From Sulfuritalea sp. (GTDB lineage Bacteria > Pseudomonadota > Gammaproteobacteria > Burkholderiales > Rhodocyclaceae), in contig JAIFMO010000221.1 in assembly GCA_020048435.1 (NCBI GenBank), positions 1-37,918 of the forward strand: DNA of 37,918 nt, written 5' to 3'. A program made the position numbers and the translations under genes. The notes below the pieces were generated by a model. It saw only the letters and a list, made by a program, of their open reading frames with translations. It was not told the DNA's origin and searched no databases. Below are positions 3,196-17,006 of the stretch, one piece after another (the stretch's first letter is position 1; every line of letters begins with the position of its first letter).

Positions 3196-4401
3196 TCAAG
3201 CGCCGTAAAGCCCACGCGCGAGGTCGGCCTGAATGTCGCTCAGATCTTCGAGGCCAACGGCAATGCGCAGCAGTCCCTCGGTAATGCCCGAAGCGGCGCG
3301 CGCCTCCGGCGTGATGCGGCTGTGCGTGGTCGAGGCCGGATGGGTGATGGTGGTCTTGGTATCGCCAAGGTTGGCGGTGATCGAGAGCATGCGGGTTGAA
3401 TCGATCACCCGCCAGGCAGCCTCGCGAGCATTTGGCTCGCCTTTCACAGCGAAACTGACGATGGCGCCGCCGCTTTTCTGCTGCCGCATCGCTAGCGCGT
3501 GCTGTGGATGCGACGGCAGGCCGGGGTAGAACACGCGCGCCACGGCAGGTTGCGCTTCCAGCCACTGCGCCAGTTTCAGCGCGCTGGCGGATTGCGCTTC
3601 CATGCGGATGCGCAGGGTTTCCAGCCCCTTGAGGATGATCCAGGCGTTGAACGGCGACAGCGTCGGACCGGCGGTACGCAGGTATTTGAATATTTCCTCG
3701 ACCAGCGCGTTGCCGCCACAGACGGCACCGCCGAGCACACGGCCCTGGCCATCGAGATATTTGGTGGCCGAGTGGATGACGAGATCGGCGCCGAGTTCGA
3801 GCGGACGTTGCAAGACGGGCGTGCAGAAGCAGTTGTCGACCGCCAGCACCGCGCCGGCGGCGTGCGCCACCGCGGCCACGGCGGCGATGTCAATGACTTC
3901 GGTGAGCGGATTTGATGGCGTCTCGATGAAGAACAGCCGGGTGGATGGCCGCACCGCCGCGCGGTAGGCCTCGATGTCGGTGGCGTCGACAAAACTGGTC
4001 TCGATGCCGAACTTGCCGAGGATGTTGCCGCCGAAAAGCTGTTGCGTGGCGCCGAAAATGCCGCGCGAGGCGACGACGTGGTCGCCGGCCTTGAGCAGCG
4101 CCATGGCGGTGGCGAGGATGGCGGCCATGCCGCTGGCGGTGGCGACGCACCGCTCGGCGCCTTCGAGTGCGGCGAGGCGCTCTTGCAGCATCGACACGGT
4201 GGGGTTGGTGAAGCGGGCATAGACCATGCCCTCCTCTTCGCCCGAAAAGCGTGCCGCGGCATGGGCGGCGCTATCAAAAACGAAGCTGGAGGTGAGGTAA
4301 AGCGCCTCGGAATGCTCGCCGAACTGGCTGCGCTGCTGGCCTGCGCGCACCGCCAGCGTGTCCATGTGCCAATCATTCGCAGTGATCGAGGTCTCGCTCA
4401 T
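3196..4401 (-). CDS. metZ: O-succinylhomoserine sulfhydrylase
   Basis: A PLP enzyme of the Cys/Met metabolism family that makes homocysteine directly from O-succinylhomoserine and sulfide in the methionine pathway. The 401-residue sequence shows YARFTNPTVSMLQERLAALEG, the aspartate region VLAVDNCFCTP, and the PLP-lysine motif SATKYLDGQGRVLGG with Lys214. The C-terminal SITANLGDTKTTITHP is typical. The order purF-metZ, with a 4-nt overlap, is conserved in Betaproteobacteria and supports MetZ over MetB or MetY. The paralogues share the fold, so the exact acyl-homoserine substrate is inferred. Confidence 0.93.
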   Translation of the reverse strand: MSETSITANDWHMDTLAVRAGQQRSQFGEHSEALYLTSSFVFDSAAHAAARFSGEEEGMVYARFTNPTVSMLQERLAALEGAERCVATASGMAAILATAMALLKAGDHVVASRGIFGATQQLFGGNILGKFGIETSFVDATDIEAYRAAVRPSTRLFFIETPSNPLTEVIDIAAVAAVAHAAGAVLAVDNCFCTPVLQRPLELGADLVIHSATKYLDGQGRVLGGAVCGGNALVEEIFKYLRTAGPTLSPFNAWIILKGLETLRIRMEAQSASALKLAQWLEAQPAVARVFYPGLPSHPQHALAMRQQKSGGAIVSFAVKGEPNAREAAWRVIDSTRMLSITANLGDTKTTITHPASTTHSRITPEARAASGITEGLLRIAVGLEDLSDIQADLARGLYGA

Positions 4402-11470: not shown

Positions 11471-12327
<857 letters not shown>

Positions 12328-12331
<4 letters not shown>

Positions 12332-13164: not shown

Positions 13165-13223
13165 TCGATCATCCAAGGCAAATAGGCGGCATCTGTGACA
13201 GGAAACAAGGGATCGGCACGATG

Positions 13224-13439
13224 TCAGGCAAAAATCAACCGTGCACCCTTGGGCTCCGGGATAGGTCGGCCGAATTCGCGAGCCGTGTCGAGCCAAAGTG
13301 CAATCGCATCGCCGATATTGGCGAGCGCATCGCTCCGGCTGGCGCCGTGGGCCATACAGCCCGGCAGTTCCGGCACATCGGCGACAAAGGAAGCGTCGAC
13401 GTCACTCCAGTAGATGATGACCTCGTAGCGATCCATCAT
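13224..13439 (-). CDS. hicB: HicB-family antitoxin (short form)
   Basis: The likely antitoxin to the adjacent HicA-like toxin. It is 71 residues, starting [32 protein letters not shown], the degenerate RNase-H-fold HicB core, with [19 protein letters not shown] following. It ends soon after [13 protein letters not shown], so the C-terminal DNA-binding domain found in longer HicB proteins is missing; self-repression by HicB alone is therefore doubtful. The start codon overlaps the hicA stop by 4 nt (ATGA type), indicating translational coupling. The gene sits inside the trp cluster between trpB and trpA. Confidence 0.87.
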
Positions 13440-13690
13440 TCCTCCTTCGCCAACCGATATTTCACTATAACGGCACGAACCTGCCTCACCTGGTAGGGCT
13501 TGGCCTTGTTGCCGTCGCGCTGCAAATTGAGGAGTTCGCTCACCCCTTCGCGCCGATACATGTGATGACTCCCTCTGATCCTCTCTTCAAAGTCAAGCCC
13601 TTTCAGCAGGTCGCACATCTCGTCGAAACCGATATTCGCGTCGGCCAGCCCGCCGAGTATCCGTAACAATAGCTTGTCATCGCGCCCCAT
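13436..13690 (-). CDS. hicA: HicA-family toxin
   Basis: A probable mRNA interferase of the HicA family, which has a double-stranded-RNA-binding fold. The 84-residue product carries RIRGSHHMYRREGV with the presumed catalytic His42 or His43, followed by LLNLQRDGNKAKPYQVRQVRAVIVKYRL. It belongs to the somewhat longer HicA variants with an N-terminal helical extension (DDKLLLRILGGLADANIGFDEMCDLLKGL). It begins only 2 nt after the trpB stop and overlaps hicB by 4 nt, the usual toxin-first order. Transcription is therefore probably driven from the trp operon, unless a promoter hides within trpB. Confidence 0.87.
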   Translation of the reverse strand: MGRDDKLLLRILGGLADANIGFDEMCDLLKGLDFEERIRGSHHMYRREGVSELLNLQRDGNKAKPYQVRQVRAVIVKYRLAKEE

Positions 13691-13692
13691 TC

Positions 13693-14895
13693 TCAGAATT
13701 GGATGCCGGACTTTTCGGCGACGGTGTGCATATCCTTGTCACCACGACCAGAGAGGTTGACCAGCAGAAGCTGGTCTTTCGCCAGCGTCGGTGCCAGCTT
13801 GGCAGCGTAGGCCACGGCGTGACTCGATTCGAGCGCCGGGATAATGCCTTCATAGCGGCAGAGATCGTGGAAGGCCTGCAGTGCTTCGTCGTCGGTGATG
13901 GTGACGTACTCGGCGCGACCGGAATCCTTGAGCCAGGCATGCTCGGGACCGACGCCGGGGTAGTCGAGGCCGGCCGAGACCGAATGCGTCTCGATGATCT
14001 GGCCGTTGGCGTCCTGTAGCAGGTAGGTCCGGTTGCCGTGCAGCACGCCGGGGCGACCCGCGGTCAGCGAGGCGGCATGCTTGCCGCTGTCTAGACCATG
14101 ACCTGCCGCTTCGACGCCAATCAGTTTCACGCCCGGGTGCGGAATGTAGGAATAGAAAATACCCATCGCGTTGGAGCCGCCGCCGACACAGGCGATCACC
14201 TGGTCGGGCTGACGATTGGCCAGTTCAGGCATTTGCGTCAGGCATTCCTCGCCGATTACCGACTGGAAATCGCGCACCATCATCGGATACGGGTGGGGAC
14301 CGGCGACCGTGCCGATAATATAGAACGTGTTGCCAACGTTGGTCACCCAGTCGCGCATGGCTTCGTTCAGCGCATCTTTCAGTGTCTTCGAACCGGACTC
14401 TACGGGTACGACGGTCGCGCCCAGCAACTTCATGCGATAGACGTTGGCAGCCTGCCGCCGAATGTCCTCGCTACCCATGTAGACCACGCATTCCATGCCG
14501 TAGCGCGCCGCCACGGTAGCGGTGGCAACACCATGCTGGCCAGCGCCGGTTTCGGCGATCACCCGCGGCTTGCCCATGCGCCGCGCCAGCAGAGCCTGAC
14601 CAATGCAGTTATTTATCTTGTGGGCGCCGGTGTGGTTGAGGTCTTCGCGCTTGAGGTAAATCTGCGCGCCGCCCAATAAATCCGACCAGCGCCTGGCGTG
14701 ATAGATAGGGCTCGGGCGGCCGACGTAATGCTTGAGTTCGGACTCAAATTCGGCTCGGAAAACCGGATCGTGCTGTGCCGCTGTGTAGGCCAGGCGCAAT
14801 TCTTCCAGCGCCGGCATCAGGGTTTCCGCAACAAAAATGCCGCCAAACTTGCCGAAGTGGCCGCGTTCATCGGGTAACTTGTAAATATCAGACAT
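13693..14895 (-). CDS. trpB: tryptophan synthase beta subunit
   Basis: Condenses indole with serine to give tryptophan. The product is 400 residues and starts [19 protein letters not shown]; the longer ORF start is rejected because it would run through trpF. PLP-binding Lys93 lies in [15 protein letters not shown] and the phosphate-binding loop is [12 protein letters not shown]. Further family signatures are [11 protein letters not shown] and [14 protein letters not shown]. Its start overlaps the end of trpF by 8 nt. Full length and intact. Confidence 0.97.
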
Positions 14896-15538
14896 CTGCC
14901 CGCCAATCCGTTCGAGAATCCGCTGTTCGCACTGCCGCCACAAACGCGGCGATCTTGCCGGCATCCTTGATGCCTTTGGCCAGTTCAACGCCACTACTCA
15001 CATCCACCGCCCAAGGCCGCAAGTTGACGATGGCTTCCAGCACGTTACCCGCATTTAGCCCGCCAGATAAAACCAGAGGCTGCGGCAATCCTGCCGGAAT
15101 CAAGCGCCAGTCGAAGGTTTGTCCGGCACCGCCGTAACCCTCGACATAGGCATCAAGCAAGATTGCCTGGGCCGAAGGAAATGAGCGGGCGTATTCTAAC
15201 AAATCGAACCCTGGCCGCATCCGGGCGGCCTTGAGATAGGGCTTTCCGAACTGACCGCAGTAAGCAGCGTCCTCGTCGCCATGGAATTGCAACAATTCGA
15301 GCGGCACCGCAGCCAGAATCTCGCGCACGACAGCCGCTTCGGCATTAACGAACAGGCCGACACGACTAACGAAGGGCGGCATGTGCGCCACCAGTTCGGC
15401 GGCCGTCGCCACATCGACAAAACGAGGGCTCGGCGGATAGAAGACAAAACCGAGCGCATCGGCACCGGCCTTTACTGCTATTTGCAAATCATCCGTGCGG
15501 GTGATGCCACAAATCTTTATGCGGGTTCTCGCGTTCAT
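14888..15538 (-). CDS. trpF: phosphoribosylanthranilate isomerase
   Basis: Converts phosphoribosylanthranilate to CdRP in tryptophan synthesis, a TIM-barrel isomerase. It is 216 residues from [14 protein letters not shown], with catalytic Cys in KICGIT and Asp in [13 protein letters not shown], and the phosphate site [12 protein letters not shown] plus AVDVSSGVE. The start at 15538 forms a 4-nt overlap with truA, preferred over the track start, which lies upstream within truA. Its stop overlaps trpB by 8 nt. The trpF-trpB-trpA order is conserved; trpE, trpG, trpD and trpC are not in the window. Confidence 0.96.
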
Positions 15539-16314
15539 GGGCGGATGATACCGCCCCGGGACGGTGGCAAACCCCATTCGGGCGGGTAATCGACGCCAAC
15601 AAAATAGAGACCGGCGGGATCGAAGGTTGCCGCCGCGCGGGTGCGATCACGGCTGACCAACAATTCGCCGACCCATTCGGGCGATTGCTTGCCTTTCCCC
15701 ACGGCAATCAGAGTGCCGACGAAGTTGCGCACCATGTGATGCAGGAAGGCCGACGCGCGAAAGTCGAACAGCAACATATCGCCCTCCCGTGCGATGTCGG
15801 CGCGATGGAGTTGCTTGATCGGCGACCTGGCTTGGCACTCGGCGGCACGAAAAGCCGAAAAATCGTGTTCGCCCAGCAACAACCTGGCGCCATTACGCAT
15901 GGCATCGACATCCAATGGCAGATGGAACCAGCCGACGCGACCATGCTGCATGGCAGGACGAACCGGACGATTTAGCAGCAAGTAGCGGTAGCTACGCGAG
16001 ATGGCGCAGAAGCGGGCGTGAAAATCATTGGCTACCGGCATCGCCCAACGCACGGCGATCTGTGGCGGCAGATTGGCGTTTACGCCGCGTATCCAGGCAC
16101 TATCGGGTCGTTTGGCAGTGGTATCGAAATGTACGATCTGTTCCAGTGCGTGCACCCCGGCATCCGTGCGCCCCGCGCAGGCGATGCGGATTTCGGCACC
16201 GGCAATTTTAGATAACGCATGCTCGACGGCATCCTGTACGGTATTACCGTGCGCTTGAGACTGCCAGCCCGAGAAAGCGGTGCCGTCGTACTCGATGCCG
16301 AGCGCAATTCTCAC
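15535..16314 (-). CDS. truA: tRNA pseudouridine(38-40) synthase
   Basis: Makes pseudouridine at positions 38-40 of the tRNA anticodon arm. The 259-residue protein starts with GTG: VRIALGIEYDGTAFSGWQSQ, the typical TruA opening. Catalytic Asp51 sits in CAGRTDAGVHALEQ. Later blocks, RSYRYLLLNRP, FSAFRAAECQARSP and FLHHMVRNFVGTLIAVGKG, are characteristic. The GTG overlaps the upstream stop as GTGA, and its own stop overlaps trpF by 4 nt, so translation is coupled along the run. The track ORF extends 49 codons upstream of this, without homology. Confidence 0.95.
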   Translation of the reverse strand: MRIALGIEYDGTAFSGWQSQAHGNTVQDAVEHALSKIAGAEIRIACAGRTDAGVHALEQIVHFDTTAKRPDSAWIRGVNANLPPQIAVRWAMPVANDFHARFCAISRSYRYLLLNRPVRPAMQHGRVGWFHLPLDVDAMRNGARLLLGEHDFSAFRAAECQARSPIKQLHRADIAREGDMLLFDFRASAFLHHMVRNFVGTLIAVGKGKQSPEWVGELLVSRDRTRAAATFDPAGLYFVGVDYPPEWGLPPSRGGIIRP

Positions 16315-17006
16315 GGCAGGATCAACGCCACCGTAATCACCATAGCCATGATGGCGAGTAAAACGCGGTCGCGTCGACGCACAACTGGAACGGATAGTTG
16401 CAGAATGGTCAAGGGCGTGGCATGCGGTTTCGCTTCCGTTTCCCCCACCCAATCCCGCCATGAATGCTGACCACCCTGTTCGGCGAATTCCAGCGCCAGC
16501 ATCAGCCGCACCATGATGCGTTCACGCAGTTGTCGCCTGTTTGCAAGTGGCGCGAGGAATACATGCAGACCCGCCAGCAGGCCGTCGCGTCCCAACCCGG
16601 CCAGCATCCAGGCCAGACAGGTCAGCATGACGAGCAGACGCAACAAATGGAGTGCGGCAAATTCGAATCCATCGAAAGTCAGGCCCATACCACCGGCAAT
16701 ACCGGGCAGACGTTCGCCTGGCGTGGCAATTATGAACACCAGCGCAATCGCAAGCATCAGCCAGCGCGCGCGGCGCAACATGGTGGCAACCTGGCGGGGA
16801 TAATGCAACAACGCAGCAGGCAGCACCAGCAGGGCGATCATGGCAAGCAGAGACAAGGGCAGGCGCTGAATAAGCACCGCGAAGACGCACAATACGGACA
16901 ACCAGCAGGCCGGATGCAAGCGCATGGCTAATAGGCCGGCGCGGCAGGTAGTATCCAGGTGAGCGGCAGAAGAAGCCGCGGCGCAGGCCGCGCCGCGGTC
17001 ATTCAT
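16311..17006 (-). CDS. EcfT/CbiQ-like transmembrane protein
   Basis: A membrane protein of about 231 residues (204 if it starts at MRLHPACWLS, 16925). It resembles the T component of energy-coupling-factor vitamin and metal transporters: RLHPACWLSVLCVFAVLIQRLPLS at the start, TPGERLPGIAGGMGLTFDGFEFAALHLLRLLVML in the middle, and LRERIMVRLMLALEF towards the C-terminus, with about five or six hydrophobic helices. No ATPase (EcfA) or substrate-binding S component is nearby. It begins 3 nt after fimV and overlaps truA by 4 nt, so it belongs to the operon. Family assignment is by pattern only; a lone T component might serve distant modules. Confidence 0.62.
   Translation of the reverse strand: MNDRGAACAAASSAAHLDTTCRAGLLAMRLHPACWLSVLCVFAVLIQRLPLSLLAMIALLVLPAALLHYPRQVATMLRRARWLMLAIALVFIIATPGERLPGIAGGMGLTFDGFEFAALHLLRLLVMLTCLAWMLAGLGRDGLLAGLHVFLAPLANRRQLRERIMVRLMLALEFAEQGGQHSWRDWVGETEAKPHATPLTILQLSVPVVRRRDRVLLAIMAMVITVALILP

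Follow-up and report, generated by a model that had tools for sequence, protein, structure and literature searches.

A Class 1 hicAB gene pair between trpB and trpA of Sulfuritalea sp., a rare but recurrent arrangement in betaproteobacterial genomes

Gene order and identity of the pair

The window, the whole stretch of 37,918 nt that was analysed, carries on its minus strand the gene order truA-trpF-trpB-hicA-hicB-trpA-accD. The original prediction had placed a hicAB toxin-antitoxin pair between trpB and trpA, and its coordinates and description were correct. In ascending position the features are:

11471..12331, minus strand: accD, acetyl-CoA carboxylase subunit, downstream member of the run (assigned with the linkage given in PMC2395257)
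12328..13164, minus strand: trpA, tryptophan synthase alpha subunit, overlapping accD by 4 nt
13165..13223, minus strand: hicB-trpA spacer, 59 nt
13224..13439, minus strand: hicB, antitoxin of 71 amino acids with a partial RNase H fold (beta-beta-beta-alpha)
13436..13690, minus strand: hicA, HicA-family toxin of 84 amino acids, predicted mRNA interferase
13441..13447, minus strand: AAGGAGG, Shine-Dalgarno sequence of hicB within the 3' end of hicA, read directly from the sequence
13691..13692, minus strand: trpB-hicA spacer, 2 nt, read directly from the sequence
13693..14895, minus strand: trpB, tryptophan synthase beta subunit
14888..15577, minus strand: trpF, overlapping trpB by 8 nt, its start not being fixed
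15535..16461, minus strand: truA, tRNA pseudouridine synthase, upstream member of the run (assigned from its own sequence and the known truA-trpF linkage, PMC2395257)

TrpB and TrpA scored above the NCBIfam cut-offs, and the trpB copy listed is the only one in the genome. The seven genes of this run follow each other with overlaps or 2-nt gaps throughout, the 59 nt between hicB and trpA excepted. The sequence confirmed that hicA starts 2 nt past trpB and overlaps hicB. This overlap amounts to 4 nt, or to 1 nt if a second in-frame ATG of hicB at 13436 is used; the second ATG is the likelier start, the spacing of the AAGGAGG motif, 4 nt ahead of it, being best for this codon. The GC3 of hicAB (0.69-0.71) was close to that of the neighbouring genes (0.62-0.81). 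Genome comparison excludes a chance placement: seven other genomes have the same two genes at the same site and in the same order, and one more has a remnant of them.

HicA remained below the Pfam threshold (23.6 versus 27 bits, E=5.6e-5), and neither HicA nor HicB matched an NCBIfam model. A search of the PDB with the HicA sequence returned nothing relevant. The AlphaFold model of HicA (pLDDT 92.6) has a helix-strand-strand-strand-helix core with an extra N-terminal helix, and among its Foldseek matches in the PDB the HicA of B. pseudomallei took ranks 1, 2 and 4, with probabilities of 0.89-0.99 at weak E-values of 0.13-0.46. The histidine of the GSH motif, H42, was invariant in 38 of 38 relatives. 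In HicA proteins that have been studied this histidine is the catalytic residue, and by analogy with the family H42 presumably has the same role. The protein is thus a divergent member of the HicA family, with a dsRBD-like fold as predicted by the model.

HicB exceeded the cut-off of the Pfam family HicB_lk_antitox (PF15919; 36.4 versus 27 bits), with a match that spans only positions 1-59 of 123. The top Foldseek matches of its model (pLDDT 87) were solved HicB antitoxins of E. coli, Y. pestis and B. pseudomallei, at a probability of 1.00. The model stops at residue 71 after the partial RNase H domain, and no further domain follows. A model ending after one domain and a PF15919 match of half length support the earlier description of HicB as a short form without DNA-binding domain. 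This form is not a recent truncation, for similarly short HicBs occur in relatives across phyla.

The pair combines three hallmarks of the HicAB family, namely a dsRBD-like HicA fold, the GSH-motif histidine and a partial RNase H fold in HicB. The order hicA-hicB, the overlap and a HicB within 60-90 amino acids that lacks a DNA-binding domain identify it as a compact Class 1 hicAB, as defined by Gerdes (2024, mBio, PMC10865869). Modules of this class have hicA before an overlapping hicB, a HicA of 60-85 and a HicB of 60-90 amino acids without DNA-binding domain, all shared by the window pair; the difference is its nesting in a trp operon. With the classical systems of E. coli, Y. pestis and B. 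pseudomallei (Classes 3 and 4) it shares the dsRBD-like fold of HicA and the partial RNase H domain of HicB, but in classical HicB proteins an HTH or RHH domain follows at the C-terminus and the protein represses its own promoter, both of which are absent here. The window genome encodes another HicA-like protein, unrelated to the first and 94 amino acids long (contig C193, L002 1430-1714). Its Pfam match was below threshold (E=1.5e-4), no hicB was detected alongside, and a MoaA-like gene is near.

Occurrence and decay at the trpB-trpA junction

The arrangement trpB-hicAB-trpA was found in nine betaproteobacterial genomes including the window, apparently intact in eight and as a remnant in one. 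Apparently intact carriers beyond the window were an uncultured betaproteobacterium (L109, genome G045), Gallionellaceae UBA2239 (L110), two Nitrosomonadales (L113, L132), Sterolibacterium (L114, genome G087), a Methylophilaceae (L128) and genome G671 (L225). Within the family of the window, 7 of 399 genomes encode a HicA of this subfamily; of the seven copies, four occupy the trpB-trpA junction (those of the window genome G000, of G045 and of G087, and the G138 remnant) and three lie elsewhere. In the Methylophilaceae group a strong match was obtained in 1 of 100 genomes only, the carrier L128. At other loci the subfamily extends over many phyla. An insertion present in essentially all relatives had been named in advance as evidence against the original prediction; conservation among relatives was checked and the pair is rare, albeit recurrent, at this junction. 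A search for this HicA matched 0 of 50,697 phage records and 1 of 72,556 plasmid records, the latter annotated as HicA family toxin, and thus revealed no recent vehicle. In IMG/VR there were 39 relatives, with a best identity of 56 %.

The junction was read in 91 genomes of the family and in 69 further genomes from the class, which were sampled by TrpA similarity to the window, so that the frequencies are indicative. Family junctions mostly measured 2-60 nt, and the longest ordinary gaps were about 113 nt; compared with the 59 nt between hicB and trpA of the window, trpB and trpA of relatives that carry no cargo usually stand 2-16 nt apart. Seven of the 91 contained cargo: the four hicAB carriers, G019, G080 and G050. 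In the 69 other genomes trpB and trpA were tightly joined, mostly with a 4-nt overlap, and none had hicAB; exceptions were three spacers of about 250-350 nt (L235, L237, L320). The L235 spacer has a reading frame of 68 amino acids, that of L237 repeat-like sequence.

In G045 (L004 755-1669) a gene for an Mrr-type restriction endonuclease (Mrr_N and Mrr_cat) is located between hicB and trpA and ends one base ahead of the trpA start. A DUF4160 and DUF2442 gene pair fills the junction in G019 and G080 (L031, L036) with almost no spacer on either side, and a gene for Uma2, a putative endonuclease, is present in G050 (L071). The DUF4160 and DUF2442 pair resembles a small toxin-antitoxin-type pair. 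Mrr was found at no other trp locus among the 26 Mrr-bearing genomes of the class. In L128 (about 3970-4055) the hicB-trpA spacer ends in a frame ...VKRLEPNYFEED with a stop codon, which resembles the last residues of the G045 Mrr and is likely the remnant of a lost mrr gene. Given this tail, an old age of the hicAB-mrr composite of G045 is suggested, but suggested only. These junctions are best read as an occasional cargo slot, filled elsewhere by Mrr, Uma2 or DUF4160/DUF2442. Earlier work had already described inserted genes at this junction for Burkholderia and Flavobacterium (PMC2395257). The accessible part of that paper has a gene 'X' at the same junction, considers such inserted genes possible 'morons' and does not identify X as a toxin-antitoxin pair, whereas the cargo of the window is hicAB. 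The papers that could be searched gave no account of hicAB in a trp operon, and neither 'trp' nor 'tryptophan' occurs in the main text of PMC10865869.

In a tree of 94 HicA and HicB pairs the trp-located copies formed two clades. A constraint to one clade was not rejected (AU p=0.92) and scored better than the free quick search; because of this, one old insertion at trpB-trpA is compatible with the sequences. The carriers are scattered over the TrpB/TrpA tree, with at least four changes of state needed, and G138, a member of the window genus, groups within the genus with the non-carriers G101 and G046. Its hicAB remnant (L009 1552-1890) lacks hicA codons 1-49, deleted directly behind the trpB stop, and hicB is frameshifted by a short tandem duplication; trpB and trpA are open. 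The remnant was 86 % identical to the window pair, about the identity of trpB/trpA in the two genomes. This agreement favours a common inheritance within the genus, and we read the pattern as descent of hicAB from the genus ancestor with later losses. In two of the four congeners the insertion is missing, and trpB and trpA meet at a clean junction of 5-16 nt. A recent transfer of the whole block was considered and rejected, as flank identity between carriers did not rise towards the insertion. A search for direct or inverted repeats at its borders gave nothing suggestive. For all pairs of trp-located copies, pN was 0.10-0.23 versus a pS of 0.59-0.98; by this codon comparison, hicAB at the trp site is under purifying selection.

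Two explanations offered by the original prediction were weakened. The pair was to be stabilised by polar effects of its loss on trpA, but of the four congeners two are without the insertion and have a tight junction, and a third has an intact trpA behind a broken hicAB. The short HicB was to reflect a replacement of self-repression by operon control, but short HicBs are found at other loci of the subfamily, and since they occur across it the loss of self-repression was not caused by the move into the trp operon. Going by this distribution, the short form was already that of the subfamily's ancestor; it may have opened the way to nesting in an operon.

Expression and retention of hicAB in the operon

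Promoter-like and terminator-like sites were as frequent in the operon as in shuffled sequence (promoters 2 versus 1.9 expected, from sigma-70 consensus scans that miss many promoters; terminators 7 versus 5.3 expected), which supports the predicted embedding of hicAB in the operon. The scan of the interval from trpB to trpA gave no convincing site of either kind, and the 59-nt spacer contains neither a terminator-like nor a good promoter-like site. The anatomy argues well for co-transcription with the host run, and hicAB is probably expressed only by riding on the trp operon. That its expression follows the transcription of the tryptophan operon is plausible, as originally proposed; the same run also ties it to the housekeeping genes truA and accD. 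hicA has no obvious Shine-Dalgarno sequence and is probably translated by re-initiation after trpB. Shine-Dalgarno-like purine runs precede hicB also in several trp-located relatives. With AAGGAGG ahead of hicB and no such motif ahead of hicA, the antitoxin is expected to be translated more strongly than the toxin.

The best explanation, with a probability of roughly 70 %, is an operon-nested, externally transcribed Class 1 hicAB passenger at trpB/trpA. In an ancestral betaproteobacterium, a compact Class 1 pair would have inserted between trpB and trpA, in one event or very few. Having neither a regulator nor a detectable promoter of its own, it would receive its mRNA from polymerase reading truA-trpF-trpB-trpA-accD. 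A weak hicA start, reached by re-initiation after trpB, and the strong Shine-Dalgarno sequence of hicB would keep the antitoxin in excess. HicB would mask the active site of HicA; at a shortage of HicB, HicA would cleave mRNA and growth would stop. The cassette would be kept for addiction or defence and be lost once the toxin is inactivated first.

The pair might instead have its own promoter inside trpB, its operon position being incidental. E. coli hicAB has two promoters of its own (PMC11594946), but promoter-like sites in the operon are at chance level and within the final 200 nt of trpB no hexamer match exceeded 7 of 12 positions, so that we regard an own promoter as unlikely. Slightly less credit is due to hicAB as a purely selfish or neutral remnant, no longer an active toxin-antitoxin system and persisting by inertia: the scattered, rare occurrence and the decay series would fit, but both window genes are intact and retain the invariant motif residues, and non-synonymous change among the trp-located copies is small. 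A tentative possibility, compatible with the passenger explanation, is an anti-phage function, in which defence genes occupy the slot, among them hicAB, constitutively co-expressed with housekeeping genes. The other cargo is nuclease- or toxin-antitoxin-like (Mrr after hicAB in G045, Uma2 in G050) and a role of HicA in defence has been argued by Gerdes (2024, PMC10865869); against this, PADLOC gave no match and only 7 of 91 family junctions contain cargo.

A nutrient-coupled switch is very improbable. Here hicAB would be kept for its position: tryptophan starvation would induce the operon, HicA would be made, HicB synthesis would stall, and the freed toxin would halt growth. In 7 of 7 trp-located copies examined, HicA has no tryptophan and HicB two conserved ones, which in the window HicB are W11 and W49; other loci have the same composition, however (no tryptophan in 84 of 86 HicA, two in 86 of 86 HicB), and the pattern, being subfamily-wide, was rejected as an adaptation to the trp locus. 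Moreover, the site was lost in two of four congeners, truA and accD belong to the same run, and control by tryptophan is putative. Even fainter is the prospect that the locus is a tryptophan sensor, at which the tryptophan-free HicA would be made under tryptophan limitation and the two-tryptophan HicB would not; if true, codon content and operon position would turn a generic toxin-antitoxin module into a sensor of tryptophan.

The locus presents a known kind of toxin-antitoxin module, with predicted toxicity, neutralisation and co-transcription, and its position is unusual, recurs in other genomes and is informative. hicAB modules that are compact and lack a DNA-binding antitoxin occur commonly, and their mode of expression is an open question; Gerdes states the regulation of modules with such HicBs as open, with experiments on them still to come (PMC10865869). 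The window locus is a clean natural case in which the source of the transcript, the host operon, is readable from the anatomy. Together, the intact pair, the pair with Mrr cargo, the beheaded remnant and the clean junction form a natural series for studying entry and exit of toxin-antitoxin genes in operons.

Relatives at other loci

Several relatives outside the trp operon lie 100-500 nt downstream of the preceding gene, where promoters of their own are possible; for this reason strict dependence on operons does not hold for the entire subfamily. Distances of 50 nt or less to a co-directional upstream gene were found for 16 of 68 hicAB relatives versus 92 of 304 ordinary reading frames at the same loci. 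A preference of the subfamily for operons was therefore rejected; judged by spacing, it tolerates operons and does not seek them. Pairs of the subfamily were seen directly behind hisH (L133), cbbQ/norQ (L178), a nitrite/sulfite reductase gene (L181) and a MotA/TolQ/ExbB gene (L137). Another is nested in or directly behind a UDP-GlcNAc 2-epimerase gene (L121), and one lies directly behind a thiolase gene and ahead of a 3-hydroxyacyl-CoA dehydrogenase gene (L129). At L006 (683-1493) a hicAB relative outside the trp operon is followed by a protein resembling Uma2, the type of protein also encoded in the slot of G050.
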